23,408 nt of DNA, taken from positions 1 to 23,408 of IMG/VR virus record IMGVR_UViG_3300031630_000031, one strand, 5' to 3'. The position numbers and the translations under genes were made by a program. The DNA comes from a virus. The notes beneath the pieces are model-generated. The model was not told the DNA's origin, ran no database searches, and worked only from the letters and a program-made list of their open reading frames with translations. This document shows positions 514 to 18,654 of this stretch, one piece after another (the first letter of the stretch is position 1; each line of letters begins with the position of its first letter).

Positions 514-891
514 TTAGTCAAACTTTGCAATCTCATATATTGAAGACATATGTTTGTCACCCGTAGGATTGAAGTACGGTCTTGCAGTTTCGAAGGTTTC
601 AGTGGTTGGGGAAAGACTATTAATTTTATCTAATCTAAATAATCTCCATCCCGGTCTATTTTCAGGAGTGTCTGACGAACCCCTTACTTGCCACGCTCTA
701 ACAACTACGTTACCCGACTTAATGTGTGGTCCCATAGCGACTGCCTCTATCTCACGATAACCTTTATTAATTGTTTGGTCACCAGCATAGTAAATTGTAA
801 TCACCTTTCGATTACGAATTGAATTTGCTAGTGCGTCACGACTAACGGCTTCTTTAATTATTATCTTTCTAAGTGAGTCTAATAGTTTCAT
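514..891 (-). CDS. WYL-like domain protein with a capsid-targeting-like N-terminus
   Basis: This is a 125-residue protein. Residues 25-95 follow the layout of a WYL fold: a strand with ITIYYAG (31-37), YREIEAVAMGPH (45-56), a strand VVVRAW (62-67), and WRLFRLDKI (82-90). I recognise this as a short phage WYL-like domain by pattern, not by search. WYL domains usually sense ligands or nucleic acid in regulators, but there is no attached helix-turn-helix here. The first 14 residues are basic/hydrophobic and end in I12-K13-E14 followed by A15, matching the T4 prohead protease site (I/L-x-E, then A/G/S). The ATG overlaps the stop of the preceding gene (TAATG at 889-893), which suggests translational coupling. 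Its promoter is probably the late-type element at 1292-1300, so it would be made late. An injected head protein is possible. Confidence 0.75.
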   Translation of the reverse strand: MKLLDSLRKIIIKEAVSRDALANSIRNRKVITIYYAGDQTINKGYREIEAVAMGPHIKSGNVVVRAWQVRGSSDTPENRPGWRLFRLDKINSLSPTTETFETARPYFNPTGDKHMSSIYEIAKFD

Positions 892-1277
892 TAAAAGTTT
901 GGGTATTGGTTTCCTTCTCCGAATTCGTTAGTGTTTGTATTTTGAGACCTAGTTAGTATATCGGTTGTTCCTCCGATAGTACCATTATCACCTTTACCTT
1001 TATTATCCCCATCGGAGATAGCATTAGGATGTGAAACCCCATACGCGTTTGAAGCGTTAAACGTATTAAACGCTACGATATTTTGTCTAGTTAATATGTC
1101 GGTTTGAGAACCAACCTTATCGTCACCTCCCTTACCCTTATCATCACCATCCGAATTCGCATTTGGGTGATTTGAATTATATTCGTCAGATATGGTACCA
1201 TCGTATTCGTTCGATGACATTAGAGCCGCTCTTTGAGCGTCACCTATTTGTGTTAATGTTTCGTTAGTGCTTGGCAT
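891..1277 (-). CDS. Acidic low-complexity protein with an internal duplication
   Basis: This is a 128-residue hydrophilic protein with no domain I know. Two copies of a roughly 31-residue block are visible, at residues 36-66 and 82-113. Both contain HPNA, SDGD, KGKG and TDILTR in the same order, with a repeat spacing of about 46 residues. The Asp/Gly-rich core (SDGDDKGKGG and SDGDNKGKGD) recalls metal-binding or flexible linker repeats but does not fit a canonical EF-hand. A late-type promoter element lies 14 nt upstream, inside the last codons of the preceding gene. The stop codon overlaps the ATG of the WYL-like gene. A decoration or internal head protein is one possibility, but the function is unknown. 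Confidence 0.7.
   Translation of the reverse strand: MPSTNETLTQIGDAQRAALMSSNEYDGTISDEYNSNHPNANSDGDDKGKGGDDKVGSQTDILTRQNIVAFNTFNASNAYGVSHPNAISDGDNKGKGDNGTIGGTTDILTRSQNTNTNEFGEGNQYPNF
939..1172 (-). repeat. Diverged direct repeat (about 93-96 bp, two copies) inside the acidic protein gene
   Basis: Copies lie at about 1080-1172 and 939-1034. The DNA copies share recognisable stretches (for example gcatt(a/t)gg(a/g)tg and the run encoding TDILTR) but have drifted, so this is an old duplication. Confidence 0.75.
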
Positions 1278-1289
1278 AATTGTCTTTTA

Positions 1290-1736
1290 TTATAAATATC
1301 TATTCATTATTTTTAACGACCTTTTAATTTCTTCCGATAGTCTACTCATATCTATCTCACCGGCAATACCGTCTTTCGTGTGTGATTTTCTATATGCGTT
1401 TTTCTTACCGGGGGTAAGGTCCGCGGCTCTTCGAGCTGACTTCTTTTGTTGTTCAATTTCCTTTCGAGCTTGATTCAATGTTTCGGTTACCCATTTACTC
1501 ATGACATCACCACCATTTAAGGAATAAGAGTCCACATCGACCTTAGGGTCTAATTGTTTAAAATCAAACACTAACCTTTTAAGTTGTTGGTATGTCATGT
1601 TCTTTTCCTCGACCAGTCTACGTAATCTCTTCATACCAACACCCTTAACGTGATTCATACGTTTAAGTGTGTCATTTAAGTGACTTAATATCCTACTCGG
1701 TATTGCGAATTTCTTATGTTGTAACTGACTATTCAT
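1290..1736 (-). CDS. Conserved phage hypothetical protein, basic and helical
   Basis: This is a 148-residue protein rich in Lys and Arg. Residues 7-60 (HKKFAIPSRILSHLNDTL, followed by a helix-rich segment with MKRLRRLVEEKNMTYQQLK) resemble an N-terminal module seen in many uncharacterised large-phage proteins: a basic IP..IL.HL helix, then a RL..L / SY..LKR segment. The middle (residues 90-120) is a charged helix with KKSARRAADLTPGKKNAYRK. The last 16 residues contain SEEIKRSLKIMN, which is strikingly like the N-terminus of the HAD-like protein at 17803 (EENIKRLMEIMN). Its ATG overlaps the preceding stop (TAATG at 1734-1738), so it is coupled to that gene. The function is unknown. The neighbours suggest a virion or head-assembly role. 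Confidence 0.7.
   Translation of the reverse strand: MNSQLQHKKFAIPSRILSHLNDTLKRMNHVKGVGMKRLRRLVEEKNMTYQQLKRLVFDFKQLDPKVDVDSYSLNGGDVMSKWVTETLNQARKEIEQQKKSARRAADLTPGKKNAYRKSHTKDGIAGEIDMSRLSEEIKRSLKIMNRYL
1292..1300 (-). promoter_or_regulatory. Putative phage late promoter element (GATATTTAT)
   Basis: The minus strand reads GATATTTAT ending 14 nt before the ATG at 1277. It lies in the last codons of the upstream gene, which would give the 1277-1 genes an internal late promoter. It matches the element found before the other late-type genes in this window. Confidence 0.55.
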
Positions 1737-2458
1737 TAATTACTTAATTTATTCATAATGTATTTTTTATCCTCGTCGGACAAATCCATTAAGTATTTTA
1801 ATTTTCTATCTAGTATTGGATTATCATCCATCTCCTCAATTTCCACCTTAGGGTTCATAATATCGGAAGACTTAGTTTTTGTTTTAAGTAGTTGGTCCAC
1901 ATACTCATCGATTTGTTTTTTTGAGATACGTTCGATAATCCTCACCTTACTTTCACTATTCGGGATATAACCCATTTTTTCCAGTCTCTCTTTAGCATCT
2001 AACTCATCAAACCCCAATTCATTTACGAAGTGAGCCAAAGCTTCCTCATAAGTTTTATTAGCGTCCATAGTATCTTCGAAACCTAATGCATCATCCATTT
2101 CGGCCTCACCCCAATATCTCCTCATATAATCCCCACTTTGAAAAGGTGGTTGTCTAGCTGACTTTGCGGTCATATTTGACGTTTTTCTAGCCGTTGTACT
2201 TACAACTCTTACGTTTTTAGGTATTTTTGATGATGGTATTGAACCGTCGAAGTCGACAATTTCTTCAATATCTGTCTCAACTGACTTTTCCGGTAACGTT
2301 TTAAAATTAGTTTCTTTAGAAAATTCACTAGCCATATCACACCATTTGGTTTTCTCCTTTTTACTCAAAGAATCGTCATTACACTGAGCGTAGAAGTATT
2401 TTTGTTGTTTTTTAGACTCGAATTTTTCGAAAATTAAGTCCTTTATTCTTTGGTCCAT
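1736..2458 (-). CDS. Conserved phage hypothetical protein with an SKKQQKYFYAQ-type N-terminal motif
   Basis: This is a 240-residue hydrophilic protein. Residues 12-55 carry FESKKQQKYFYAQCND followed by SLSKKEKTKWCDMASEFS, a pattern like the short 'SKAQQRFF' segment (DUF3008-like) that recurs in phage proteins of unknown function. Residues 80-115 are basic and probably disordered. Residues 125-240 are acidic and helical. It is the first gene of the minus-strand series and has a late-type element 19 nt upstream, back to back with the element of the plus-strand gene at 2516. No enzymatic motif is visible. Production late in infection and a virion or assembly role are inferred from the promoter type and neighbours only. 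Confidence 0.7.
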   Translation of the reverse strand: MDQRIKDLIFEKFESKKQQKYFYAQCNDDSLSKKEKTKWCDMASEFSKETNFKTLPEKSVETDIEEIVDFDGSIPSSKIPKNVRVVSTTARKTSNMTAKSARQPPFQSGDYMRRYWGEAEMDDALGFEDTMDANKTYEEALAHFVNELGFDELDAKERLEKMGYIPNSESKVRIIERISKKQIDEYVDQLLKTKTKSSDIMNPKVEIEEMDDNPILDRKLKYLMDLSDEDKKYIMNKLSN

Positions 2459-2477
2459 AGATAAAATTTGTTTTTAT

Positions 2478-2486
2478 ATAAATATC
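2478..2486 (-). promoter_or_regulatory. Putative phage late promoter element, minus strand
   Basis: The minus strand reads GATATTTAT 19 nt upstream of the ATG at 2458. It is separated by only 13 nt from an identical element pointing the other way (2500-2508). Confidence 0.6.
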
Positions 2487-2499
2487 AAACAATTTTGAA

Positions 2500-2508
2500 G
2501 ATATTTAT
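2500..2508 (+). promoter_or_regulatory. Putative phage late promoter element, plus strand
   Basis: GATATTTAT ends 7 nt before the ATG at 2516. If it acts like a -10 element, transcription would start at or very near the start codon, giving a leaderless or nearly leaderless mRNA. Confidence 0.6.
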
Positions 2509-2515
2509 TAAAGTA

Positions 2516-3565
2516 ATGAGTATAACTAATAAATATCACAATTCTGGTTCTCAGTTAGGTTTAAAACTTAACCGAGGATATTTTTATGATGTCACTCCTC
2601 AAGTAAAAAATATAACAAATATGGATTTATTGTATAGTACATCACTAGTTAACAATCACCTATCGGTGGATGTTAACCCAAACAATAAGGAATTAATTTA
2701 CCTAAGTGATTCGTCACTTGAGCCGTTAACCACCAACATATTGGGGGAGTTCGGTTACGATAATGGTAAATTCTTTAGATATAAGTTTAGACGACCCGGT
2801 AAGAGTCTATTCGATAATATACTACCTAATGGGTGGTCTATCGAAACTGTTTTAAATTTTAATAACATACCTACGGGACCATTAAGTGTGTTCTATTATT
2901 TAGGTGCCGCCCACATCGGTTTGAGAGATGTTTATGAAGATGGGGTGTTAGTTGAAGATAATAGTGAGACCCATAAAACGGATTACCTACATAATAACTT
3001 AGTTTTTGCGTTTGACGAAAATAAGAGTATTGTGGTTCGTTCGGTTAGATATATGGAGGAATGTTATGATTGTAACGGAGAACCAACAAAGGGTGAGTAT
3101 GTTTTTGAACATAAATTCAATAAACCTGTTTGTTCCAATGATGAGTCTGATTTTCTTGTGACAATTGTTTTTGAGAGGGACGGTAATATACTACAAGGTA
3201 TGTGTTCTGCATTAGATACTAAATTTATTGAGAGTACCTCTGAGAGAATGGGAACCCTTAAAATATATGTTAATGGGTTACTTTATGGTTCGATATCGGA
3301 ATACGAGGATATCATCACTAGAATAACCAAAAATACGCCACCTGTCATTGATTTCGTACAGGGATGGGGGTTTTCGGACGATTATAGATTATCGGACGAT
3401 TATAATATGGTAGGAATCTTCGAGGGGTTACAACCAAGAGGGAGATTCCATTCCGAACCATTGGAAATTATGGAAATAAGGCATAATTATGGGATTTTAA
3501 AAACTGAATACGGAATTAACGATTGTATTTCAGAGGGTTGTAGACCCAACTTCCCAAAAATCTAA
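2516..3565 (+). CDS. Putative virion/adhesin protein with a LamG-like beta-rich fold
   Basis: This is a 349-residue protein from the ATG at 2516. The frame is open 48 nt further upstream, but that would put the start upstream of the late-type element at 2500-2508, so the internal ATG (MSITNKYHNSGSQLGLKLNR) is preferred. The sequence is beta-rich. WSIETVLNF, LGAAHIGLRD and LKIYVNGLLYGSIS resemble concanavalin/LamG-type jelly-roll strands, of which the last is the most typical. Three cysteines (CYDC and a later PVC) could bind metal or pair. It begins a three-gene plus-strand run (10 and 12 nt gaps) ending with two other surface-type proteins, which supports a tail-fibre or head-fibre role. A small internal tandem duplication (tcggacgattata twice, 3374-3404) gives SDDY-RL-SDDY. 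No family was confirmed by search. Confidence 0.6.
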   Translation: MSITNKYHNSGSQLGLKLNRGYFYDVTPQVKNITNMDLLYSTSLVNNHLSVDVNPNNKELIYLSDSSLEPLTTNILGEFGYDNGKFFRYKFRRPGKSLFDNILPNGWSIETVLNFNNIPTGPLSVFYYLGAAHIGLRDVYEDGVLVEDNSETHKTDYLHNNLVFAFDENKSIVVRSVRYMEECYDCNGEPTKGEYVFEHKFNKPVCSNDESDFLVTIVFERDGNILQGMCSALDTKFIESTSERMGTLKIYVNGLLYGSISEYEDIITRITKNTPPVIDFVQGWGFSDDYRLSDDYNMVGIFEGLQPRGRFHSEPLEIMEIRHNYGILKTEYGINDCISEGCRPNFPKI

Positions 3566-3575
3566 AATAATTAAA

Positions 3576-4247
3576 ATGAGTAAAAACCCAAACAAATCTT
3601 CGAGGTTGTCGAATAGTGAAAGTGATTTAACCGTGAGAGTGAATTCTGGTGGTAAGTCAAAGACAAATTCTACTACCAGACCATCCACCGAAATATTAAG
3701 TAAATCGGATAGATGGGTTAATATTATATTTACCCCAACTACAACGACAACAACGGAATCGACAACTACGACCAACGGCAGTTATTATACTCTAATTAAT
3801 AAGTATTTTTTTAGTGACGTAATGAACGAATTAGTAGTTGTGGAGCACGACTTCTCATCCAAAATTGGTGGGGAATGGAGGTATAGTGATAGTGACATAA
3901 GATGTATTGTCAGTACCAATGTTAATGGATATGACAAGAGCTTATCACAAAGAAATTATTCGGTATCAGACGATAGTGAAGGGTCAATATCCGTTGGGGA
4001 TTCATCGATAATGTCGGGAATTACAACACAATTATCTACACATACACCTTTTAATGGTGACATTAGAGGGGTGTTTTATGACTATCATAACTTATTAGGT
4101 ACTACTCAGGATAGTTTTATTATAACGATAGAGAATGGTGTCGTAATATCAATTGTATCCTTTTCAGTCATAATATTATGTGACGCAAATGATGACGCAA
4201 CAATCACATTAATAACAACTCCGTCGTCGGAAGATTCGGATAGTTAA
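3576..4247 (+). CDS. Putative fibre/adhesin protein with a Thr-rich linker
   Basis: This is a 223-residue protein in three parts: a polar N-terminal 50 residues rich in Ser, Lys and Arg; a Thr-rich tract at residues 53-66 (TPTTTTTTESTTTT); and a beta-rich C-terminal 155 residues with alternating hydrophobic strands ending in an acidic SSEDSDS tail. Thr-rich linkers between domains are common in secreted or virion surface proteins. The last strand segment (GVVISIVSFSVIILCDA) is hydrophobic but fits a beta strand better than a membrane helix. It starts 10 nt after the preceding stop and is probably on the same transcript. The function is inferred from composition and neighbours only. Confidence 0.55.
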   Translation: MSKNPNKSSRLSNSESDLTVRVNSGGKSKTNSTTRPSTEILSKSDRWVNIIFTPTTTTTTESTTTTNGSYYTLINKYFFSDVMNELVVVEHDFSSKIGGEWRYSDSDIRCIVSTNVNGYDKSLSQRNYSVSDDSEGSISVGDSSIMSGITTQLSTHTPFNGDIRGVFYDYHNLLGTTQDSFIITIENGVVISIVSFSVIILCDANDDATITLITTPSSEDSDS

Positions 4248-4259
4248 ATTTAACCATAT

Positions 4260-4604
4260 ATGAAACATTTTATAAAAAAAAACTCACAAGAACCTGTATT
4301 AGCGGTTACGTTATATAACGACGAAAAATTCTTTAAAGAACCGTTTCAGGACAGGATTGAGAATTCAATCATAACTTTCACAATGGAAGACGATAAGGGA
4401 ACATTTAAAATTTTAAACTCCCCTTGTTTCCTAACGAAAGAAAATGGGGATTATAGTATTATCTATAAATGGTCTGAGAAGGACACATCTAAGATTGGTT
4501 CCTTTAAGGGTTATTTTACGATTGAATTTCTTAATGACGACTATGAGGTCTCAACAAAAACAATACTACCAATTAAGGAAGAATTGATTATCAATATTAT
4601 TTGA
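4260..4604 (+). CDS. Small beta-sandwich phage protein, probably virion-associated
   Basis: This is a 114-residue protein, almost all predicted beta strands. It has the sequence logic of a small immunoglobulin-like or baseplate-upper-protein-like domain: IENSIITFTMEDDKGTFKI early, then GDYSIIYKWSEKDT, then GSFKGYFTIEFLND, ending in ILPIKEELIINII. I associate this end pattern (strand, FTIEF-type strand, LPI..EL.INI) with short phage structural proteins of unknown role. It is the last of three plus-strand genes, 12 nt behind the Thr-rich protein. Its last codons overlap the -33 element of the DNA polymerase promoter (4600-4603). Confidence 0.6.
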   Translation: MKHFIKKNSQEPVLAVTLYNDEKFFKEPFQDRIENSIITFTMEDDKGTFKILNSPCFLTKENGDYSIIYKWSEKDTSKIGSFKGYFTIEFLNDDYEVSTKTILPIKEELIINII

Positions 4605-4631
4605 TAGTTTAGAAAGTATTCACTACATTTG
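4600..4631 (+). promoter_or_regulatory. Host-type (Bacteroidota) promoter of the DNA polymerase gene
   Basis: TTTG at 4600-4603, a 20-nt spacer, and TACATTTG at 4624-4631. This matches the Bacteroidota primary sigma factor consensus (TTTG or TTG, 19-21 nt, TAnnTTTG). It lies 23 nt before the first possible ATG of the polymerase gene. No GATATTTAT element is present here, consistent with early expression by the host RNA polymerase. Confidence 0.7.
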
Positions 4632-4654
4632 TACTTGAATGTTAAGGGTAATCT

Positions 4655-7612: not shown

Positions 7613-8716
7613 TTATATTGCCGTAAATGGTCCTGTGAAAGGTCTATATTGTAATGTCTTATTTAAGTTTTCAGCTTCACTAGCTCTTCTTTCTAACATT
7701 TTGTCAGGTCTTAATCTCTCTAACCGTAATTGTAGTTCTTCGACTAATTTAGACTTTTCATCTTTACCCTCAGTTAAAAGAGAATCATATTCTAATGAAA
7801 GTTCCGAGTCTGGAGTCTTTAAGTTACCACCAAATTTACCTCTAACTCTACCTAACGATTCCTTACAGGTCGCTATGAAATATTTTCTAACCCAATTCTG
7901 TGCTGGCTTATTGATTGATTCCCATGTTAATTCTTCGGTCTCGACATCAGACGGTAGTTTAACTACGTCAGGATTATCTGCCATACATTTCACTCTATCC
8001 TCGGTATTATAATACCAATACCATACTTTATCTCTATTCAATGATTGAGACCCAAAATCGAACTTACCTCCAGGAACATTCATTAAATGAATATATTTTC
8101 CACCATCAGGTGCTGCGGTTACTCGATAAGTTAGGTCACCACCGATTATCCTATTTTTTAAATTTCTATCTTGGAGTCTTAGTAATATGTCGAATGCTGG
8201 CATCATATGCATACCACCCTGAATTCCCATTTGAGTGAATCCACCTCCACCTCCCATACCACCACCGGCCATACCACTACCCATGAATGGGTCGATTAAT
8301 GACTCGTTAAGTTCTGCTCGGTTAAACCATAATAATTCGTTAAGTTCCCTACCTTTTGGTATGTGATACATCTGTTGCCCTGACACCAATTCAATATAAT
8401 CTTTCTCTAAGACCCAATCACCACCTGTTTGTAGTCCCACGATTTTAGAGTACGCGTATGTGAATTGAGTTTCGTAATCCACACTTCTAGTTGTGAATGC
8501 TCTGGCTAGTGATTCTTCGTCAACGTTAAGTCCGTTTAGGGAGGTCCATTGAGATTCGATTAACCAATCCTGTATGTATTGTTCGTACTCACTCAACGAT
8601 AATTCAAGTAATGAGCCCATTTGGTCCTCATCTAATTCAACTGACCGAATAGGAGCGCCTAAGAGGTGTAATACCTGCTTATAAAGTTTTGCCTTATTTT
8701 TAGTGTTAATACTCAT
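7613..8716 (-). CDS. Neck protein, T4 gp13-like (head completion/head-tail connector)
   Basis: This is a 367-residue protein. Residues 12-50 (LLGAPIRSVELDEDQMGSLL, then a helical ..SEYEQYIQDWL) follow the N-terminus of gp13-like neck proteins, where LGAP..IELT..Q...... is typical. Further family-like segments are DYIELVSGQQMYHIPKGREL, FDILLRLQDRNLKNRI and WYWYYNTED. A Gly/Met-rich loop interrupts the fold at about 144-172 (GGGMGGGGG), which I have the impression is a recurring feature of this family. In T4, gp13 joins gp14 to seal the portal and prepare for tail attachment. Here gp14- and gp15-like genes lie 4-5 kb away on the other strand. A late-type element sits 14 nt upstream. The assignment is by pattern and not by alignment. 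Confidence 0.75.
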   Translation of the reverse strand: MSINTKNKAKLYKQVLHLLGAPIRSVELDEDQMGSLLELSLSEYEQYIQDWLIESQWTSLNGLNVDEESLARAFTTRSVDYETQFTYAYSKIVGLQTGGDWVLEKDYIELVSGQQMYHIPKGRELNELLWFNRAELNESLIDPFMGSGMAGGGMGGGGGFTQMGIQGGMHMMPAFDILLRLQDRNLKNRIIGGDLTYRVTAAPDGGKYIHLMNVPGGKFDFGSQSLNRDKVWYWYYNTEDRVKCMADNPDVVKLPSDVETEELTWESINKPAQNWVRKYFIATCKESLGRVRGKFGGNLKTPDSELSLEYDSLLTEGKDEKSKLVEELQLRLERLRPDKMLERRASEAENLNKTLQYRPFTGPFTAI

Positions 8717-8745: not shown

Positions 8746-9573
8746 TTAAATAAACTTTAAAATGTTACGGATTATATCTAAGTCTTCATTTAAAAGGTCA
8801 TTTCCTCTTTGCCATTTTATTCCCGTATTAAGAATTAAATATGAACCATTTTTTTGTAATTTACATTTTTTTGAATCGGCTAAAATAATTTTTGACCCAT
8901 TCACAAACGCAATGAAATTCGTACTATATCCTTTTATATTACCCTTTCCGATTCCATCAATGAAATGTCCGATTCTACCTTCAGATATCCCCGAAAATGG
9001 TTTTACTTGTATTGTGTAAGTTGGTATTGTAATTACGTTTTGATAAGCGACTACATCTACCCCGTCACTCATATCTATCCCTACTCCGTCACCACCCACT
9101 TTCTCAATGGTTAGACCATTAAATATTGGGCAACCATCTAATAATTCCACCGATTTGGTTTCAGTTTCTTCACCTTTACTTACGGTATTAGTTATAATTG
9201 GTACTACAAACCTTAAATAAAGTTCCCCGTCCTCAGAAAATAAAGAATCAATGTCCTTAATCACCAACGACTTTAAATCCTCTATAAGTTTAAGGGAAGG
9301 ATTATTTGGGTCTAAATCGTAGTACTCTATCAATCGAGCCCATAACTTAATATTGGTGTTAATCCTGTTAATTATTCCATGCCACTTCCCATCGATAGTG
9401 GTTGCCCCCTCATACCTCTTGTCGTTAAATATGGTTCTACTTAACGGTCGGTACGTATCCATTACGATACCCCATATGAATTTTTTCCACTCACCATTAA
9501 GTACTATCTCAGATGCCCTATTCCAATATGACGATTCTGACGACTCGTTAATTAATATTTTTAATCTTCCCAT
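8746..9573 (-). CDS. Unknown late protein with a T4-like capsid-targeting N-terminus
   Basis: This is a 275-residue protein I do not recognise. It starts MGRLKILINE followed by SSESS, so residue 10 is Glu in an I-x-E/S context. This is the position and sequence type of the T4 internal-protein targeting peptide (MKTYQEFIAE, cut after E10). The body has a helical first half (residues 15-115, with KKFIWGIVMDTYRPLSR and WARLIEYYDLDPNNP) and a beta-rich second half (135-245) with conserved-looking Gly (GGDGVGIDMSDGVD). No catalytic motif is obvious. An AGTATTTAT element, one variant of the late motif, lies 14 nt upstream. The next gene on the strand is the gp13-like neck gene. An internal head protein is the best guess, resting mainly on the N-terminus. 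Confidence 0.7.
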   Translation of the reverse strand: MGRLKILINESSESSYWNRASEIVLNGEWKKFIWGIVMDTYRPLSRTIFNDKRYEGATTIDGKWHGIINRINTNIKLWARLIEYYDLDPNNPSLKLIEDLKSLVIKDIDSLFSEDGELYLRFVVPIITNTVSKGEETETKSVELLDGCPIFNGLTIEKVGGDGVGIDMSDGVDVVAYQNVITIPTYTIQVKPFSGISEGRIGHFIDGIGKGNIKGYSTNFIAFVNGSKIILADSKKCKLQKNGSYLILNTGIKWQRGNDLLNEDLDIIRNILKFI

Positions 9574-9587
9574 GTGATTTCTTTTAT

Positions 9588-9596
9588 ATAAATACT
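9588..9596 (-). promoter_or_regulatory. Putative late promoter element, AGTATTTAT variant
   Basis: The minus strand reads AGTATTTAT, 14 nt before the ATG at 9573. It keeps the TATTTAT core of the late element with a changed 5' end. Confidence 0.45.
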
Positions 9597-9692: not shown

Positions 9693-10451
9693 ATGACAAC
9701 ATCCTCTTTCATCTCAGAATACAACGGTAGTAACCCATTCTTAAATTCAGTTAAAAACGGTTACGCAAAGTACGGACGTTTAACTTCGGCACAAGTAATC
9801 GCCGTTGATAAAATCAGAAATGGTATGAAGGAAAAGGTTAAGTCTATGGCGCCAATCGAGGTTCGTGAGAACATCAAACAAATAATGGATTATAAAGGAA
9901 CTAATAAGTTCATATCTGACCTTCAGTCTAAATATGATAAATATGGTCGTCTAACTGAAAAACAAATCGACGCTGGGTTAATGGCGATTAATAGAAAGGT
10001 TCAGAATAAAATGGTAGAGCCGATGACATTAACAGGTAAAAACACTATACGTATTCGTCAGTATATTGCTCGTCAAATCAAAGAGGAGAAAGATTTAAAA
10101 TTCCTACCGATTCAAGTTGATGTTACTCACCTAATCGGAGCGTCTCGTAAAGCGATACACCTTAGAGGTAAATTATCTACAGTAGTTGGGGTTGAATGTC
10201 GTTGTTGTGGAAGAGCGTTGTCAGATAAACTGTCAATGGCTTCAGGGATGGGTAAAACTTGTGCAACTAACACCGGATTGAAATATCTAAAGGACGAGTC
10301 TGACGTGGTGAGATTTAATGTGGACTTAGCTAAGAGAGTCGAAGAAATTGGTTCTTTCGACTTTTGGATTCCTAAATCTCAAGTCCAAGAATGGGAAGGT
10401 CTTTATTCTATTGTTCTTAAATCTCAATTTAAGACTTATGTTACTCAGTAA
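9693..10451 (+). CDS. DUF6011-like zinc-binding protein with two N-terminal KYGRLT modules
   Basis: This is a 252-residue early-type protein. Two similar modules open it: residues 14-36 (NPFLNSVKNGYAKYGRLTSA) and 71-93 (NKFISDLQSKYDKYGRLTEK). The same pattern appears at the N-terminus of the SNF2 helicase encoded at 11068-12822. Residues 166-196 contain C169-R-C171-C172-G-R-A-L, then S..SGMGKTC190A, matching the DUF6011 pattern (C..CGR.L.....S...G.GP.C), a predicted small zinc site. Residues 95-165 between them are basic and mixed. The gene has its own host-type promoter and overlaps the convergent 10441-11052 gene by 11 nt at the stops. A DNA- or replication-associated adaptor is plausible. 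The function is unknown. Confidence 0.78.
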   Translation: MTTSSFISEYNGSNPFLNSVKNGYAKYGRLTSAQVIAVDKIRNGMKEKVKSMAPIEVRENIKQIMDYKGTNKFISDLQSKYDKYGRLTEKQIDAGLMAINRKVQNKMVEPMTLTGKNTIRIRQYIARQIKEEKDLKFLPIQVDVTHLIGASRKAIHLRGKLSTVVGVECRCCGRALSDKLSMASGMGKTCATNTGLKYLKDESDVVRFNVDLAKRVEEIGSFDFWIPKSQVQEWEGLYSIVLKSQFKTYVTQ

Positions 10452-11052
10452 TTGTAATGATGATTTGGTTCCCTTCTTTAATAATCTTATGATTAGAAGG
10501 GATTAGGTCCGAGTAGTATTTTAAGTAAAAATCCACAGTCTCATTACTTTCCTTAATTAGGGTCGTCTCCTCCAATGGACTAATTATTGGATTAATCTGA
10601 TAATCAATATCGTCAGATTCGTAATTCCTAAAATCCCTATCGGTCATATCTAACTCATTGTACGTTCCCTCATCAGTAATACCTTTTGCGACATCATACT
10701 CAGTGTATCCATATATTTGACCCTCATACGTGTCGACACCGTAACCACTCCATGATACGGTAACCTCAACATCAAACGCCTTTTCGACAGGGTTTCGGTT
10801 AAAGGATTCGTCATCATAATTGGTAGTCTTCGAGGTTTGAAAAGCCCCCATAATTTTATCCATTAATTCACCGTCTTTCCAACTTAACCCAGAACTATGT
10901 AATAACTTCGTTATCATTCCCAATTGTCTATCGTCAGAATAGTCGAATTCTGTAACGCCACGACTCATTAGATAAACAGAAACCATTTTAGTTAATTTCT
11001 GAAACCTAAGGTTATCCACCTCTTCTTTAATCGTTTGTCTAAGTTTTCCCAT
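10441..11052 (-). CDS. Unknown protein with a possible capsid-targeting N-terminus
   Basis: This is a 203-residue acidic protein with no domain I recognise. It begins MGKLRQTIKEEVDNLRFQKL. Residues 8-10 are I-K-E, at the same position as I-N-E in the 8746-9573 product, although the next residue is Glu rather than a small one. The centre (95-140) is rich in Tyr, Asp and Gly (WSGYGVDTYEGQIYGYTEYD). The C-terminus ends in a short amphipathic strand (QIIITITE). It lies 15 nt after the helicase stop on the same strand. It could be read through from the helicase promoter, or use an AGTATTTAC sequence (11057-11065) that weakly resembles the late element. The stop overlaps the convergent gene. Confidence 0.65.
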   Translation of the reverse strand: MGKLRQTIKEEVDNLRFQKLTKMVSVYLMSRGVTEFDYSDDRQLGMITKLLHSSGLSWKDGELMDKIMGAFQTSKTTNYDDESFNRNPVEKAFDVEVTVSWSGYGVDTYEGQIYGYTEYDVAKGITDEGTYNELDMTDRDFRNYESDDIDYQINPIISPLEETTLIKESNETVDFYLKYYSDLIPSNHKIIKEGNQIIITITE

Positions 11053-11067
11053 ATTAGTAAATACTCA

Positions 11068-12822: not shown

Positions 12823-12840
12823 AAACGCATATTATGTTAT

Positions 12841-12871: not shown

Positions 12872-12873
12872 TA

Positions 12874-12882: not shown

Positions 12883-12886
12883 TATT

Positions 12887-13399
12887 ATGGGTAAAAAGAA
12901 ACAACCGATAAACAGGATGAATAAGTTTTTTTCTTACGATGATTTCGATTTGGAGTTGTCGATGGGAGAGGAGTGGTTGCACGGTGACATGAATTTCACA
13001 ATGGTGTTATTCCGAGTTGATAAGAGTAAATCTGTCGACGACGTCTACGGGGAATCAGGTAAGGGTGAGATTAAATTCTTCCCACCAACCGAATTTAAAG
13101 GATATGTACAAATAGCCGGTCCTGATAATAAAACCTACTCAAACGGGTTAGGTCGTTATTTAGAGCCGGGTAATATGACCGTATCAATTTATAAACACCA
13201 TTTGGAGGAAGAAGGAATTGATATTTCTTATGGTGATTACGTTGGTTATTACGAAACAGAAGATAAAGTACGTTATTATGAAGTCGCAAACGACGGGAAG
13301 GTAACGTCAGATAATAAACACACATATGGAGGATTTAAAGCGTTCTATAGAACTATTTTATGTACACCAGTAAGTGAGGACCAATTTAAGGGAATGTAA
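12887..13399 (+). CDS. Neck protein, T4 gp14-like (tentative)
   Basis: This is a 170-residue protein. The C-terminal third (ISYGDYVGYYETEDKVRYYE, then HTYGGFKAFYRTILCTPVSE) has the layout of the C-terminal part of T4 gp14 (GDLIYFP...FEINWVEP....): a 'YGD.V.Y...E..RYYEV' strand pair followed by a loop and a 'FYRTI.C.PV' strand. Such proteins sit at the head-tail joint. It is immediately followed (2-nt gap) by the gp15-like gene, reproducing the T4 14-15 order. The residue Met11 could also act as a start if the mRNA begins downstream of the first ATG. The assignment relies on order and short motif similarity. Confidence 0.65.
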   Translation: MGKKKQPINRMNKFFSYDDFDLELSMGEEWLHGDMNFTMVLFRVDKSKSVDDVYGESGKGEIKFFPPTEFKGYVQIAGPDNKTYSNGLGRYLEPGNMTVSIYKHHLEEEGIDISYGDYVGYYETEDKVRYYEVANDGKVTSDNKHTYGGFKAFYRTILCTPVSEDQFKGM

Positions 13400-13401
13400 T
13401 T

Positions 13402-14670
13402 ATGTCACTACCAAAGAAAGTTAAAAAGGATATTAATGCATATCCAACGAAAACGTTATTAGATAGAAGACAGGAAATGTTAGAGCAGATAACGAATCAA
13501 GATACTAACCTTCCTGAGTCGGTAATGCACGAAGATTTGGATTTAGGTATGTTAGAATTCGTTAAAGAACACTTAACGTTCAATACCGATGGAAACCCAG
13601 TGAATTTTGTGGATAAGATTTTATCCTTACAAAGATGGGCTGAACTATCAAGTACGTGGGAGTTCACAGACAAAGAAGAAAAGATACAAATACCGTTTAT
13701 TGTGGTGGTTAGAAAACCTGAAGTACCATATGGTTCAAATCCCGCTTTGATGTATACGATACCTGACAGACAAACATTCTTCTATAGAAAGGTTAGTACG
13801 TGGGACGGGAATAGATTAGGTGCGGACATCTATAAAATACCTCAGCCAGTACCGGTGGATTTATCTTTCGAAGTTGTTGTGGTATGTAATAGAATGAGGG
13901 AACTTAACAGTTTTAATAAAAAAGTGATGCAGAAATTCTCATCAAGACAGGCGTATACTGTAGTCAAAGGTCATTATATTCCAATCGTATTATCATCAAT
14001 CGCTGACCAATCACAGATAGACGCAATTGAGGGTAGGAGGTTTTATCAACAAACATACTCATTCCAAATGCAAGGGTTCTTAATGGACGAAGAGGAGTTT
14101 GAGGTGGTACCTGCGGTTGATAGACAAATGGTTATGATAGAATCAAGTTTTTCCCCATCTAAGGGTTCTGCGGTTAAAATAGAAAAAATAATTAAATCTA
14201 ATATTGAGGTTGAGACCAACACCTTTGTTGGTGATGGTACAACAACAACATTTAAAGTTCAAAAGAAGATTAACACACTTTTCTATGTGGAGATAAATGG
14301 GTTAGTACAAAGATTAGGTGTCGATTATATACATAACGGAACTAGTTCTAATATTATTTTTCTTACTCCACCACCTAAAGATTCGGTTGTGAGGGTAACA
14401 TATACATATGATACTGATTTCACAACTAACGATAATAAGGTACTTACAGTGTCTAACCAGTCATTTGATTTTGATGATACAACATTAGAGTTTAATACGG
14501 ACTTTCCGATAGATAGTATCATACTTTTAGACGTTGGTGGATTACTACAACTTGAAGTCGACTACTATACATATGAAAAAGGCACAACTAAAATAGTGGT
14601 TAACGAGATACCACCAATTCAAGGGTCTAATGGGGTTAAAATGTCCGTAGTATATCTTAGGACGATTTAA
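13402..14670 (+). CDS. Tail terminator/sheath-stabiliser, T4 gp15-like, with two C-terminal beta domains
   Basis: This is a 422-residue protein. Residues 90-240 resemble T4 gp15: a strand with VPVDLSFEVVVVCNRMREL, a helix with FNKKVMQKFSSRQAY, then IPIVLSS, and RRFYQQTYSFQMQGFLMDEE (compare RRRIEWSLTFEVNGWMYPP in gp15). T4 gp15 caps the tail tube and sheath for head joining. It is longer than T4 gp15 (272). The extra C-terminus holds two related beta units: 274-335 (FVGDGTTTTFKV, LFYVEINGLVQ, GVDYIHN) and 350-422 (DFDDTTLEF, SIILLDVGGLLQ, VDYYTYEKG). Such GDGTTTTF/VDY domains are frequent in phage fibres, so this neck protein may carry surface decoration. It ends 4 nt inside the opposing small gene. 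Confidence 0.75.
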   Translation: MSLPKKVKKDINAYPTKTLLDRRQEMLEQITNQDTNLPESVMHEDLDLGMLEFVKEHLTFNTDGNPVNFVDKILSLQRWAELSSTWEFTDKEEKIQIPFIVVVRKPEVPYGSNPALMYTIPDRQTFFYRKVSTWDGNRLGADIYKIPQPVPVDLSFEVVVVCNRMRELNSFNKKVMQKFSSRQAYTVVKGHYIPIVLSSIADQSQIDAIEGRRFYQQTYSFQMQGFLMDEEEFEVVPAVDRQMVMIESSFSPSKGSAVKIEKIIKSNIEVETNTFVGDGTTTTFKVQKKINTLFYVEINGLVQRLGVDYIHNGTSSNIIFLTPPPKDSVVRVTYTYDTDFTTNDNKVLTVSNQSFDFDDTTLEFNTDFPIDSIILLDVGGLLQLEVDYYTYEKGTTKIVVNEIPPIQGSNGVKMSVVYLRTI

Positions 14671-14825
14671 CTCTCTCCGTAGATATCCGTCTTGGGTTTA
14701 CAATTCTCCTCAATTAACCTCTCAACGTGATTAAACATCTTTAAACCCTCTTTATTACAATGGGTCTTAAGTAGTTTATGATGGTATTCTGATATCTTAA
14801 TGTTTTTAATTGGTTTATCGCTCAT
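14667..14825 (-). CDS. Small ribbon-helix-helix-like DNA-binding protein
   Basis: This is a 52-residue protein from the ATG at 14825 (MSDKPIKNIKISEYHHKLLK). A longer frame to 14867 exists, but its extra residues only translate a repeat-rich leader. The pattern is a short strand (IKNIKIS), a helix (EYHHKLLKTHCNKEG), a turn, and a second helix (KMFNHVERLIEENC), the size and layout of MetJ/Arc-type ribbon-helix-helix proteins. It is the only minus-strand gene inside the tail module. It faces the sheath gene divergently, with GTATGAAAAAA repeats between them that might be its operator, and its stop overlaps that of the gp15-like gene by 4 nt. It could regulate sheath or its own expression, which is inference only. 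Confidence 0.5.
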   Translation of the reverse strand: MSDKPIKNIKISEYHHKLLKTHCNKEGLKMFNHVERLIEENCKPKTDIYGES

Positions 14826-14833
14826 AATATGTG

Positions 14834-14862
14834 GTATGAAAAAAGTATGAAAAAAAACATAC
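14834..14862. repeat. Two GTATGAAAAAA direct repeats plus an inverted CATAC
   Basis: GTATGAAAAAA at 14834-14844 and GTATG plus eight A at 14845-14857, followed directly by CATAC (14858-14862), the inverse of the repeat head. The spacing (11 nt, about one helix turn) and the position 9 nt upstream of the RHH-like start suggest an operator. Simple AT-rich slippage is the alternative. Confidence 0.5.
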
Positions 14863-14909
14863 ATCATATAAATATAATATTTTTTAAAAAGTCTTTTGGG
14901 AAAAAGATA

Positions 14910-14918
14910 AATATTTAT
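14910..14918 (+). promoter_or_regulatory. Putative late promoter element of the tail sheath gene
   Basis: AATATTTAT, one base from GATATTTAT, 41 nt before the sheath ATG at 14960. The leader between them is almost purely A/T, without a Shine-Dalgarno sequence. Confidence 0.5.
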
Positions 14919-14959
14919 AGTAGTAAAGAAATAAATTACATAAAAAAAAATATTTTATA

Positions 14960-17749
14960 ATGGCAAATTCTAACAGAGTTTTCGTCTCACCGGGTGTATA
15001 TACATCAGAAAAAGACTTGAGTTACGTATCTCAAAGTGTAGGTGTATCTACTTTAGGTTTAGTAGGAGAAACAAAAAAAGGTCCCGCATTCGAACCCGTA
15101 TTAGTTTCGGGTTACAACGAATTTAAAACGTTGTTTGGCGGACAATCACCTGAGAAATTAGGAGAAACATTAAAGTACCAATTACCGTACTACGCAAAAT
15201 CATTCTTAAATCAATCATCACAATTATTTGTGACGAGAGTATTAGGGTATTCTGGGTATGATGGTGGTGATGCACACGCAATAAAGACAATCGCCAATAT
15301 AGACATTTCAACTATTTCATTAGGAAGTAGTGTTGAACATCTTATTGACTTATTACCATCAGGTAGTTTGGATTTAACAGGGGGACCTGCAATAACCGAG
15401 TCATTTGAAATGTCTAACGGGACAATTAAAACGGCTTTAGACTTCATAAACGAATCTATTTCGGGTGGTGACTTAACAACTTCAGTAGTTGTTGGTCCTA
15501 ATTTCATTGACCTTAGTTCATATGTTAGCACTTCAGTGTTCTCAATGTCTAATGCGTCTTGGGCATTCCAATCATTAAATAGTAATACTTTAAATGAGTC
15601 AGGAATTTCTTACTCAGGTGGGTTATTTGATGATAACGGAACAATTAAATTTAAATTACATATCCAAACTATCACCGCTAATAGATTTTCAGAGGCTCAC
15701 GACAAAACAGTGGCAATCTTAAGGTCAAGAGCGGAGTATAATGGCGATGTATTAACACATAAAGTAACGTCGGACGTTACATTAACAAGTACTCAAATTA
15801 ATGTTGAGTCTGATTCAATGGCTGACTTTAAGTTAGATGTTTCTTCAGGTTCTCAATCATTCCAATTTACGTGTAACTTAAGCTCTTCTTCTAAGAAGTT
15901 CTTAACTAAGGTTATTGGTGAAGGTGCTTACGACAAGAACCCTGACCTTTATCCTTTATATGTGGATAAGGTTTATGATAACTACTTAACGTGGTTAGGA
16001 TTAACAGGTAAAGTAAAAGGTTTATCGACTGGAATATTAGAAAGCGTTTCTGACGGTGGAGACTTTAAAGAGTCATACACGTCATCAGTAACTCCTTATG
16101 TTGTTTCAGAAGTAAGAGGTGGGTTAGTTTCTGACTTATTCAGATTCATCACTATCTCAGACGGAGATTCATCAGCAAAAGAAGTTAAGATTTCTATTGT
16201 TAATATTAATATCGAGAAACAAGAATTTGACATTGTAGTAAGAGACTTCTTCGATACGGATGCGAGTCCTATTGTTATTGAAAAATTCTCAAGATGTTCT
16301 ATGAATCCTGAAGTACCGGGTTATGTTGCTAGAAAAGTGGGAACATCTGATGGTGAATACGAATTAAAATCTAGATACGTTATTTTAGAATTAGGATTAG
16401 AAGCACCTTCAGATTCTGTACCAGCTGGTTTCAGAGGTTATGAAGTAAAAGACTACGGTTTTAATACGGCATCTAACTCAGACATTCTTTATAAATCAGA
16501 ATATTACGTGGCAGGTCAAACGATAGGAGTTGATTCTAACGGTGATGCAGTTCAGGTAAATGCTGATAAAGTAAGAAAAGTTTATATGGGTATCTCTAAC
16601 ACAGTTGGATTTGACCCTTCATTCTTTGAATTTTCAGGGAAATCAATTCAAGGTGAAACGACTAAAGGATTTCACTTATCATCACAAGCGGATGGTAATG
16701 AATTCGTTAAGTCACCTGAGAATTTTGAAATAACAGAAGGTAACTTTATTAAGTTATCTGCCTGTAAATTCACATTGGCACCTGTAGGTGGACACGATGG
16801 GTTTGATATTTTCAGAAAAGAAAGAACAAATAAAGACCAATATATGATTGGTAAGAATTCATATAATAACTCAGGTTTTAATGCTAACGTAGGTGAGTCT
16901 GATTATTATGCGTTTTTAGACGGGATTATGACATATAGAAATCCTGAGGCTATCGACATTAACTTATTCTCAACACCAGGGATTAACTTCTTCGACCACT
17001 CTTCGTTAGTTGGTGAAGCAATTGATATGGTAGAACAAGAAAGAGCAGATTCATTATATATCATCGATTCACCAAACAGAGACACTGTAGATGAAATCGT
17101 AGATGATTTAGAAGATATCGGGTTTGACTCTAACTATTCAGCTACGTACTGGCCTTGGATACAAGTAAGAGACACTGAAAATTCAGTACAAGTATATGTG
17201 GCTCCAACAGGAGAGGTTTTAAGAAATATAGCATTAACGGATAACATTGCCTTTCCATGGTTCGCATCTGCGGGTTACCAAAGAGGTTTAGTTAATTCAA
17301 TTAAAGCGAAAAAGAAGTTAACTTTAGACGAGAGAGATACACTATATAGTAATAGAATTAATCCAATTGCTACGTTCTCAGATGTAGGTACTATTATTTT
17401 TGGTAATAAGACATTACAGGTTAGAGAATCGGCATTAGATAGAATCAACGTAAGAAGATTACTATTACAAGCTAGAAAGTTAATTTCTAACGTGGCGGTG
17501 AGATTATTATTTGAACAAAATGATGATGTCGTGAGAAACGAATTTCTAAGTTTGGTTAACCCAATATTAGAAGGAATTAAGAAAGAAAGAGGTTTAACAG
17601 AATTTAAGGTTGAGGTATCGTCTTCACCTGAAGATATGGATAGAAATCAATTGTCGGGTAAGATTTACATCAAACCAACAAGAGCACTTGAGTTTATTGA
17701 CATCGAATTCTTAGTGACTCCTACAGGAGCATCTTTCGAAAACATTTAA
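14960..17749 (+). CDS. Contractile tail sheath protein (T4 gp18-like)
   Basis: This is a 929-residue protein. The N-terminus (FVSPGVYTSEKDLSYVSQSV, then GLVGETKKGPAFEPVLVSGY) and the FVTRVLGYSGYDG strand are typical of phage tail sheath proteins. The C-terminal part from about 680 has the conserved sheath core: YWPWIQVRD, APTGEVLRNIALTDN.AFPWFASAGYQRG, INPIATFSDVGTIIFGNKTLQ, INVRRLLLQARKLISNVAVRLLFEQ, and a final strand pair IYIKPTRALEFIDIEFLVTPTG that exchanges between subunits in known sheaths. It is larger than T4 gp18 (659), the extra length lying in the middle (about 110-650), where additional outward-facing beta domains are expected. Its leader has a late-type element and a terminator follows the stop. 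It encodes the outer contractile tube and is probably very highly expressed. Confidence 0.96.
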   Translation: MANSNRVFVSPGVYTSEKDLSYVSQSVGVSTLGLVGETKKGPAFEPVLVSGYNEFKTLFGGQSPEKLGETLKYQLPYYAKSFLNQSSQLFVTRVLGYSGYDGGDAHAIKTIANIDISTISLGSSVEHLIDLLPSGSLDLTGGPAITESFEMSNGTIKTALDFINESISGGDLTTSVVVGPNFIDLSSYVSTSVFSMSNASWAFQSLNSNTLNESGISYSGGLFDDNGTIKFKLHIQTITANRFSEAHDKTVAILRSRAEYNGDVLTHKVTSDVTLTSTQINVESDSMADFKLDVSSGSQSFQFTCNLSSSSKKFLTKVIGEGAYDKNPDLYPLYVDKVYDNYLTWLGLTGKVKGLSTGILESVSDGGDFKESYTSSVTPYVVSEVRGGLVSDLFRFITISDGDSSAKEVKISIVNINIEKQEFDIVVRDFFDTDASPIVIEKFSRCSMNPEVPGYVARKVGTSDGEYELKSRYVILELGLEAPSDSVPAGFRGYEVKDYGFNTASNSDILYKSEYYVAGQTIGVDSNGDAVQVNADKVRKVYMGISNTVGFDPSFFEFSGKSIQGETTKGFHLSSQADGNEFVKSPENFEITEGNFIKLSACKFTLAPVGGHDGFDIFRKERTNKDQYMIGKNSYNNSGFNANVGESDYYAFLDGIMTYRNPEAIDINLFSTPGINFFDHSSLVGEAIDMVEQERADSLYIIDSPNRDTVDEIVDDLEDIGFDSNYSATYWPWIQVRDTENSVQVYVAPTGEVLRNIALTDNIAFPWFASAGYQRGLVNSIKAKKKLTLDERDTLYSNRINPIATFSDVGTIIFGNKTLQVRESALDRINVRRLLLQARKLISNVAVRLLFEQNDDVVRNEFLSLVNPILEGIKKERGLTEFKVEVSSSPEDMDRNQLSGKIYIKPTRALEFIDIEFLVTPTGASFENI

Positions 17750-17760
17750 AATTAAACATA

Positions 17761-17791
17761 AAGAGGGGAGGAATACCTTCCCTTTTTTTTT
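17761..17791 (+). terminator. Hairpin terminator after the sheath gene
   Basis: An 8-bp stem AGGGGAGG/CCTTCCCT with one G-T pair, an AATA loop, and a nine-T run. It begins 12 nt after the sheath stop and ends 12 nt before the next ATG. Confidence 0.85.
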
Positions 17792-17802
17792 AAAAATACA
17801 AT

Positions 17803-18654
17803 ATGAAAAAAGTTTTATTAGAAGAAAACATTAAAAGATTGATGGAAATTATGAACGTCGAAGTAACCGAAGGGTTTGACGACGAAGGTAATCCTGATTT
17901 TAAATACTATGCTTTTGATTGGGATGATAACATTATGTTTATGCCGACGGAAATTATGGTATCTACTTTTGGTGACCAAGAAATAGGTATGGGTACGGCT
18001 GATTTCGCCGAGTATAGAAGTAAAATAGGAAAAGAAAACTTTGACTTTAAGGGTCATACTATTACTGGATTCGCTAAGGAACCATTTATTAATTTTGGAC
18101 CTGAGGGTAATGAACAATTCGTTAAGGATTCTTTAGTTGCGAAAACAGGACCATCATGGGATGATTTCGTAGAATGTATTAATGGAGGTTCAATCTTCTC
18201 AATTATAACCGCAAGGGGACATAACCCTGAGTCACTAAGAGACGGAGTAGAGGAGATAGTTAAGGCTGGTAAGGCGGGACTATCGTTCGAATCGTGTGTT
18301 AGTTCATTAAAAAAATATAAGGGAGTAATAGAAGGAGATAACGAACAAATGTTCCGAGAATATTTAGATATGTGTGAGTTCCACCCTGTATCTTTCGGTA
18401 AAGGTAGTGCTGCTAATCCTGAAAAGGATAAGATTATCGCTTTAGACGGATTTATTAAACACGTTAATAAATTATCTGACGAATTAAAGATGACAATGGA
18501 ATTGGAAAATGATATCCATAATAACTTTGTACCGAAGATAGGTTTTTCAGATGATGATAAGGCTAACGTAGATAACGTGAAGCAATATTTAGATGACAAA
18601 GGAGATGATAGTGTTAATGTATATTACACTAAAGACAATAAAGTAAAAATGTAG
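17803..18654 (+). CDS. HAD-superfamily phosphatase-like protein with a basic/acidic N-terminal peptide
   Basis: This is a 283-residue protein. HAD motif I is YAFDWDDNI (D39, D41), with Asn43 where Thr or Val is usual. Motif II is SIITARGH (T136). The likely motif III lysine lies around K208-K210, and motif IV is GFSDDDKAN (D250, D251). All key positions for an Asp-based phosphohydrolase are present, so activity on a phosphorylated metabolite, nucleotide, nucleic-acid end or protein is plausible; the substrate is unknown. The first 23 residues (MKKVLLEENIKRLMEIMN, then VEVTE and G24) look like a removable targeting peptide: V-T-E/G is close to the T4 prohead protease site, and EENIKRLMEIMN reappears at the C-terminus of the 1290-1736 product. 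It sits between the sheath and tube genes with no obvious promoter of its own, so it may depend on terminator read-through. An injected enzyme is possible. Confidence 0.85.
   Translation: MKKVLLEENIKRLMEIMNVEVTEGFDDEGNPDFKYYAFDWDDNIMFMPTEIMVSTFGDQEIGMGTADFAEYRSKIGKENFDFKGHTITGFAKEPFINFGPEGNEQFVKDSLVAKTGPSWDDFVECINGGSIFSIITARGHNPESLRDGVEEIVKAGKAGLSFESCVSSLKKYKGVIEGDNEQMFREYLDMCEFHPVSFGKGSAANPEKDKIIALDGFIKHVNKLSDELKMTMELENDIHNNFVPKIGFSDDDKANVDNVKQYLDDKGDDSVNVYYTKDNKVKM

Follow-up and report, generated by a model that had tools for sequence, protein, structure and literature searches.

In the literature on the T4 internal proteins (PMC9026906, PMC5694885, PMC12373910 and PMC3012670), N-terminal leaders of 10–19 residues bring proteins to the core. 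Targeting depends most on residues 4 and 7 and cutting most on residues 8 and 10, and aspartate at position 10 blocks the cut with targeting unaffected (PMC9026906). This leader is the sole part common to Ip1–3, injected anti-restriction proteins that each block different type IV restriction enzymes (PMC12373910). The principle is already known, not only from the T4 internal proteins but also from P1 DarB and, in another form, from SPN3US. Here, we analysed four proteins encoded in a 23,408-base stretch of viral DNA (IMG/VR record IMGVR_UViG_3300031630_000031, the whole of which we call the window), whose N-termini are probably capsid-targeting peptides cleaved by a prohead protease, in what would be a multi-class variant of the T4 device. 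The window maps with 99.99% identity to positions 8291–31698 of a 66,453-base IMG/VR contig (IMGVR_UViG_3300031688_000009, the parent contig, G001), and both records are fragments of the virus. The four proteins and their leaders are as follows, a slash marking the proposed cut:

514..891, minus strand: WYL-domain protein without a DNA-binding part, 125 residues, proposed head cargo (open reading frame, Pfam, AlphaFold model)
850..891, minus strand: leader of the WYL protein, residues 1–14, MKLLDSLRKIIIKE/A; proposed cut after Glu14, before Ala15 (conservation of the Glu)
8746..9573, minus strand: protein of 275 residues, fold not assigned, proposed head cargo (open reading frame; orthologues in G002, G017 and G018)
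9544..9573, minus strand: leader of the 275-residue protein, residues 1–10, MGRLKILINE/S; proposed cut LINE/S after Glu10 (site in 4/4 viruses)
10441..11052, minus strand: protein of 203 residues, fold not assigned, proposed head cargo (open reading frame; orthologues at 33–38% identity)
11023..11052, minus strand: leader of the 203-residue protein, residues 1–10, MGKLRQTIKE/E, with Glu10 (site in 4/4 viruses)
17803..18654, plus strand: protein with a HAD-like phosphatase fold, 283 residues, gene lying between those of the tail sheath and the tail tube, proposed head cargo (open reading frame, alignment, fold)
17803..17871, plus strand: leader of the HAD protein, residues 1–23, MKKVLLEENIKRLMEIMNVEVTE/G, ending VTE/G at Glu23 and Gly24 (both invariant in 23/23)

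Like IPI–III and Alt of T4, whose leaders are given as 10–19 and 6 residues long, these proteins start with a short stretch ending in hydrophobic-x-Glu. In T4, an S77 protease also cuts the capsid protein and unrelated proteins have a leader in common; in relatives of the virus, an S77 protease gene occurs along with a capsid protein bearing the same kind of site, and some large relatives have leaders common to unrelated proteins. All four open reading frames and N-termini described in the first-pass annotation are present, with glutamate at residue 10 in two of them (8746–9573 and 10441–11052, both minus strand), as it had claimed. The T4 leader text MKTYQEFIAE that it cited has no counterpart in the window; inspection showed no resemblance in any of the four leaders, and judged by sequence they lie outside the T-even internal-protein leader family. 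The ejection proteins of SPN3US and phiKZ, as described in PMC5694885, resemble the proposed system in a Glu-directed prohead protease, many ejected head proteins and multi-site propeptides; the SPN3US protease cuts at A-x-E and the propeptides mostly exceed 100 residues, whereas here the site is hydrophobic-x-E and leaders measure 7–23 residues. For P1 DarB, which we compared by description rather than by sequence, PMC9024508 reports that 30 N-terminal residues are enough to bring a reporter to the capsid; unlike the proteins considered here, it is a single very large protein.

Conserved sites at the four N-termini

The WYL-like and HAD-like assignments of the first-pass annotation were both upheld by fold. 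For the WYL protein, the AlphaFold model matches the WYL domains of PafBC, DriD, BrxR and CapW with probability 1.00, and the Pfam WYL profile scores 20.0 bits (E 7e-4), slightly below its cut-off of 21.8. The protein consists of one helix and one WYL domain, the N-terminal helix-turn-helix of WYL transcription regulators not being present. A search of named phages with this protein gave no match; relatives occur in viral contigs of up to 326 kb. Among the best 80 of 183 such relatives, which gave 59 distinct sequences and were collected with six peptide patterns, one of them covering the proposed cut site, [LIV]-x-E stands at residue 13 or 14 in 59 of 59, three of which miss the strict regular expression solely through a GTG start. 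The middle residue of the site is variable (K, N, S, C, Y, V, L or T), and in an alignment of 34 sequences M1, L3 and E14 are the only invariant positions of the first 34 residues.

The HAD protein matched neither a PHROG (at E 0.01) nor a Pfam family (at E 0.1), and Foldseek alone found nothing under E 0.001 with its model. In a VIA-align comparison of the same model, HAD phosphatases rank first, the best Z being 9.0, and the alignments of the top rows begin at residue 29–32. We kept 80 of 230 relatives and read 38 loci, which yielded 28 sequences distinct within their first 60 residues. In these the site lies directly before the conserved core, as [LIV]-x-E-G in 27 of 28 and as M-K-E-G in the remaining one, although the leaders range from 7 (MKRRIKE/G) to 23 residues and are of different types. 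Across 23 aligned sequences, E23-G24 is invariant, with no other invariant position before residue 31, and so are the acids D39, D41 and D250–D252 (DxD plus acidic motif IV). Model confidence (pLDDT) is below 50 at residues 2–33 and the fold starts near residue 34, so a cut after Glu23 would leave the fold intact.

A distant homologue of the HAD protein occurs in five named huge-phage records; of the four that were read, three carry a leader of this kind (FDQFIRE/S, ELFLNE/N and NQFLE/N, with F as hydrophobic residue) and the fourth does not. A HAD profile run against 84,980 species genomes returned one distant match, in a metagenome bin, which left us without a leaderless cellular family for contrast.

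For the 275-residue protein, which matched nothing in PHROG at E 0.01 or in Pfam at E 0.1, hydrophobic-x-Glu10 is kept in 4/4 viruses (MGRLKILINE/S, MKKLSMLLTE/S, MKKLSMLITE/S and MKNLSMLIME/K), including the G017 orthologue, in which about 130 extra residues follow the leader. The 203-residue protein likewise has its site at residues 9–11 in 4/4 viruses (TIKE, RITE, RITE and ILSE), with overall identity of just 33–38%; one peptide pattern used to search for its relatives covers the proposed cut site. G017 and G018 are close kin, which makes both comparisons fewer than four independent cases. A scan of the collection for orthologues of the two proteins matched the parent contig alone; the orthologues came from reading related contigs.

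Prohead protease and capsid protein in relatives

The first-pass annotation had linked its proposal to a gp21-like protease in the genome. A first search of the window for one gave no match, and was uninformative by itself because 14 control genomes gave none either. We then searched relatives with Pfam Peptidase_S77 (T4 gp21), in 16 and then 40 records that, with one searched twice, make 55 distinct ones. A match was found in 33 of the 55, with 32 above the Pfam cut-off, some records being near-identical; by route, it was found in 21 of 28 records reached through the WYL protein and in 8 of 12 reached through another parent-contig protein. Records with no match may be fragments. The expected protease is hence present in relatives, G017 included, and was not detected in the window and 66-kb parent fragments.

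We aligned 12 proteases, namely 10 of 32 fetched loci that passed an open-reading-frame filter together with T4 gp21 and gp070 of Flavobacterium phage immuto. Invariant in 12/12 are T4 His85, T4 Ser140 and a glutamate at T4 residue 9, which follows a hydrophobic residue; LIE-9 is named in PMC9026906 as a gp21 sequence fitting the gp21 cleavage logo. The capsid protein encoded next to the protease is homologous to gp23, with E 1e-24 to T4 gp23 chains. This protein, read in relatives because its gene lies outside the window record, has LINE/A or LINE/S at residue 60 in 10 of 10 records (including G017, G021, G035 and G049), at a place corresponding to FLTE/A in T4 gp23. T4 gp23 is cut after its residue 65. 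The leader of the 275-residue protein ends in LINE/S, four letters identical to this capsid site. On one contig of 63.9 kb, G017, whose HAD and WYL proteins are 78% identical to those of the window, the S77 protease, a gp23-like capsid protein with LINE/A and orthologues of all four proteins occur together.

Seven records (G031, G032, G033, G048, G049, G050 and G051) showed two S77 candidates at first look, one of which scored as a match. The second is possibly a diverged protease paralogue; such a paralogue is reported for SPN3US (PMC5694885).

Leaders as exchangeable parts in large relatives

We next compared N-termini between unrelated proteins. The first 35 residues were removed from proteins of at least 90 residues, the remainders were sorted into families, and pairs from different families were counted when their ungapped BLOSUM62 score reached at least 45. 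With five contigs pooled, 144 between-family pairs were found at residues 2–31, against 5 at residues 36–65 and 2 at residues 61–90. Because single linkage put 254 proteins into the largest family, this test is conservative. By record, the counts against the same two internal stretches were 12 versus 0 and 0 in G004, 37 versus 2 and 1 in G007, 88 versus 2 and 0 in G049 and 48 versus 0 and 2 in G035, the last two being records of 261–317 kb. Control genomes were used in part (T4 positions 1–148000, crAss001 1–99000 and phi14:2 1–50000). T4 gave 2 pairs versus 1 and 0, and since the top pair was IPII/IPIII, the test detects the known case; crAss001 and half of phi14:2 gave 1 versus 1 and 0.

The shared leaders fall into several classes:

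Class I: KYLITESQ or GKFIITEEEK
Class II: KKIVRLTESDLxRLVKRVIxEQ
Class III: NLxENIxRIKExMGLxxE
Class IV: NLQETIRKVLKE

By regular expressions fitted to data already seen, tags of these classes are carried by 23 of 201 genes in G004, 36 of 369 in G007, 37 of 384 in G049 and 25 of 350 in G035. These several classes, matched by 7–11% of genes, differ from the three internal proteins plus Alt of T4. Applied to residues 61–92 in these four genomes, the same patterns match 0.4–2.1%. Tags are carried by 3 of 225 genes in T4, 1 of 96 in crAss001, 0 of 61 in phi14:2 and 3 of 215 in immuto, which has its own leader types. A second difference from T4 lies in class II: the first 36 residues hold at least two [LIV]-x-E sites in 33 of 37 proteins, and two lie exactly 13 residues apart in 31 of 37, mostly at 9 and 22. 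A search for the 23-residue class II leader in named phages gave one weak match (E 0.8), which was left unused.

Leader types are also swapped on one and the same body. Apart from the HAD family, this is seen for a protein containing the text YMFFSN, whose leader is of class II in G004, G035 and G049 and IV-like in G007 and G015, with hydrophobic-x-E before the body in 5/5. A Pfam scan of 54 tagged proteins matched ten families, each through one member and not all above the cut-off, including polyphosphate kinase 2, Peptidase_M23, Phage_lysozyme and SLT.

We judge it about as likely as not that a large group of uncultured T4-like phages, some above 300 kb and probably infecting Bacteroidota, has made the T4 peptide a general address system in which interchangeable classes load tens of accessory proteins per head. 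In such a system some classes would hold two protease sites 13 residues apart, and the cargo would comprise polyphosphate kinase, HAD phosphatases, wall hydrolases and WYL domains. The scale and the several tag classes may be new; we found no description of several leader classes on tens of proteins per genome in open PMC papers, which does not prove that none exists.

Two single proteins were observed besides. The G007 polyphosphate kinase 2 (25806–26906, plus strand, 366 residues) combines a class III leader with a long N-terminal extension, its domain beginning at about residue 124, some 55–110 residues later than in most solved relatives. In the parent contig, a protein of 225 residues (41434–42111, plus strand) starts with a leader like those of class III, keeps hydrophobic-x-E in 5/5 members (orthologues in G003, G007, G008 and G015) and may be a fifth tagged protein of the virus.

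A promoter-like box before tagged genes

A promoter-like box, RTATTTATA, precedes the sheath, tube and neck genes of the parent contig. Its core [AG]TATTTA lies within 60 nucleotides upstream of 23 of 36 tagged against 67 of 333 other genes in G007 (P 1e-7), 13 of 23 against 38 of 178 in G004 (P 7e-4), 24 of 37 against 72 of 347 in G049 (P 7e-8) and 14 of 25 against 85 of 325 in G035 (P 3e-3). The box was defined on these four genomes and tested in them after the data had been seen; the parent contig lies outside them. Restricting the count to genes with a 40-nucleotide upstream gap gave 10/12 tagged versus 36/122 other genes in G007, 8/9 versus 24/80 in G004, 16/18 versus 40/131 in G049 and 9/11 versus 43/121 in G035. 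The box precedes 2 of 4 tagged genes in G008 and 1 of 2 in G015, samples too small to tell. A T4-type late box, TATAAATA, whose reverse complement is TATTTATA, showed no clear excess before tagged genes.

In the parent contig, the box lies within 70 nucleotides of 17 of 62 genes, including the sheath, tube and neck genes and that of the 275-residue protein, with a variant at that of the 203-residue protein. The relevant features of the window are:

1291..1299, minus strand: box ATATTTATA, before 891–1277, the gene directly upstream of the WYL gene
9587..9595, minus strand: box GTATTTATA, 22 nucleotides before the start of 8746–9573
11056..11064, minus strand: variant box GTATTTACT, 12 nucleotides before the start of 10441–11052
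14911..14919, plus strand: box ATATTTATA, preceding the tail sheath gene, which lies next upstream of the HAD gene
14960..17749, plus strand: tail sheath (PHROG tail sheath, E 6e-60)
18854..19342, plus strand: tail tube (PHROG tail tube, E 9e-26)

The WYL gene thus lies directly behind a box-bearing gene, and the HAD gene 53 bases behind one. This placing of a putative promoter fits expression of the tagged genes together with virion genes. In G004, G007, G035 and G049 the box mostly stands 12–16 or 20–28 nucleotides before the start codon of tagged genes; were it a promoter, these messages would have very short leaders or none.

A cultured relative and its leader-bearing proteins

With the capsid protein of G008 as query, the nearest cultured relatives are phages of Microcystis, Flavobacterium (immuto) and Rhodothermus, at 34–43% identity over 57–67% of the length; the host of the window's virus is likely a member of the Bacteroidota. 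Immuto (NC_055915) resembles the large relatives in having an S77-type protease gene (MNNPLLINVTPFKGLLTE/S), a capsid protein with IVSE/A and leaders common to unrelated proteins, with 11 shared-N-terminus pairs versus 0 and 0 internally, although signal peptides account for at least one of these pairs. It differs in its leader types, ENFDLKKFLVENKLT.NSKLL.E and KKQILSEQF.RMQ.LAGIITE, and in having no annotated gene between sheath and tube. Four of the six proteins of these two types, together with gp087, are encoded at 103.8–118.9 kb, directly upstream of the terminase, portal, protease and capsid genes. The gp087 protein has a leader-like N-terminus and carries the annotation NT5C nucleotidase, for which the Pfam score is 23.8 bits against a cut-off of 24.8, and phosphatases may accordingly be a recurring cargo.

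These gene positions bear on the idea that the leaders are unrelated to heads and address proteins to some other place in the infected cell, such as the host membrane, a replication compartment or the host polymerase. In its favour, the tags come in several classes, and the tagged proteins of the large relatives include some that resemble wall hydrolases (Peptidase_M23, Phage_lysozyme and SLT), for which a head is not required. Against this stand the position of the four immuto genes just upstream of head genes, the S77 protease in 21 of the 28 searched records found through the WYL protein, the presence of the cutting motif and the box common to the sheath, tube and neck genes, and we regard such an address as most improbable.

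Three minor observations concern the same phage. Immuto gp071 (123578–124660) contains EHFIAE/A, close to the end of the T4 leader; the adenosyltransferase annotation of gp077 was not confirmed by Pfam; and a comparison of two immuto proteins with solved structures gave nothing usable.

Motif statistics, helices and competing explanations

Several observations weigh against cleavage and packaging of the four proteins, beginning with the bare motif. It occurs in 4 of 23 window genes, whether written [IL].E[AGSE] or [ILV].E[AGSE]; shuffling of residues 2–40 gives expectations of 0.89 (P=0.009) and 1.45 (P=0.054), respectively, and with any residue allowed after the glutamate, [ILV]xE occurs in 7 of 23 genes versus 5.5 in shuffles (P=0.29). 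The motif alone is therefore marginal, being weak, near chance and picked post hoc. In the parent contig, 47 gene families have orthologues in at least three other records, and 7 of them, among which are all four of our proteins, show the motif within the first 28 residues of every member; two others of the seven, 731 (minus strand) and 17983 (plus strand) of G001, have no other sign of being cargo. When glutamate was demanded in a single alignment column in at least 85% of members, the HAD protein and 731 passed, and the WYL, 275-residue and 203-residue proteins failed because their site shifts by one residue in the alignment. In addition, the shared-N-terminus test showed no excess in the window's own group (G001, G017 and G019; 1 pair versus 1 and 0 internally), nor many pairs in G015 (0) or G008 (1 versus 0 and 0), and some pairs and small clusters elsewhere are P-loops, Rossmann folds or signal peptides. 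The box also precedes parent-contig genes not known as structural, and the fragments of the virus itself gave no S77 match.

The count of 7 of 23 versus 5.5 and the two further families that keep the motif would also fit chance, with hydrophobic-x-Glu simply frequent in the Lys/Glu-rich N-termini of A+T-rich genomes and its conservation an ordinary constraint; the counts of [LIV].E pooled by position show little signal as well. The invariance of M1, L3 and E14 alone in the first 34 WYL residues, and of E23-G24 alone before HAD residue 31, speaks against this, making chance already unlikely for these two families and, as a general explanation, very unlikely. The signal sits in the conservation and the shared leaders rather than in the bare motif.

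Two further points of the same adverse kind concern helices. Hydrophobic-x-Glu is common in amphipathic helices, and in the model of the WYL protein the leader forms the first half of one unbroken helix, residues 2–26, with the cut inside it; as modelled, this would argue against a clean cut unless the helix frays. The leaders could instead be amphipathic docking helices on a scaffold, tail or other phage protein that are never cut, with a salt bridge as the reason why the glutamate persists. Both the HAD and the WYL models show a predicted helix in the first residues, the WYL leader continues into the helix of the domain, and the HAD gene sits between the sheath and tube genes. A docking helix does not readily explain, however, why HAD leaders vary in length and type while hydrophobic-x-E-G stays fixed directly before the fold, or why the leader site matches that of the capsid protein. 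Moreover, aspartate never replaces the glutamate in 28 HAD and 59 WYL sequences, which fits selection for cutting. We consider docking without cleavage unlikely.

Proposed sequence of events and its consequences

The prohead-protease reading draws on the conserved sites, the exchange of leader types, the invariant His and Ser of the relatives' protease, the matching capsid site and the common box, all of them features of sequence; targeting, cutting, packaging and injection of the four proteins are inferred by analogy. The four proteins would be made together with the late virion proteins. As in T4, the leader would bind the scaffold core of the prohead, so that the protein becomes enclosed, and a T4 gp21-like (S77) protease would cut after hydrophobic-x-Glu in the same wave as it cuts the capsid protein at LINE/A or LINE/S. 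The freed proteins would remain in the head and, again by analogy with T4, enter the host with the DNA. Once there, we speculate that the WYL domain might titrate the nucleic-acid signal of host WYL defence regulators, or pair with them; BrxR and CapW are WYL regulators of defence. An equally speculative role for the HAD protein would be to strip phosphate from a host nucleotide or signal.

In the wider address system considered for the large group of phages, the virion would carry much of the phage's host-takeover and counter-defence set, active before any phage gene is read. If the reading is correct, the N-terminus alone would mark virion-carried proteins and give a short list of early-acting, probably anti-defence proteins, and the new leaders could serve to load proteins into phage heads beyond those of E. 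coli phages. Immuto, growing on Flavobacterium, is a cultured phage in which the idea is directly testable.

Genomic setting of the window

Besides the tail sheath and tail tube, the window encodes a baseplate hub, a head-tail adaptor (neck), a DNA polymerase and a SNF2-type helicase. A DNA search of named phages with the window gave no match. Gene starts follow a simple longest-open-reading-frame rule with ATG preferred; in G018, this rule chose a start 11 codons 5' of the likely one. The gene upstream of the WYL gene (891–1277, minus strand) encodes a protein with a repeated stretch of the form HPNAxSDGDxKGKG.

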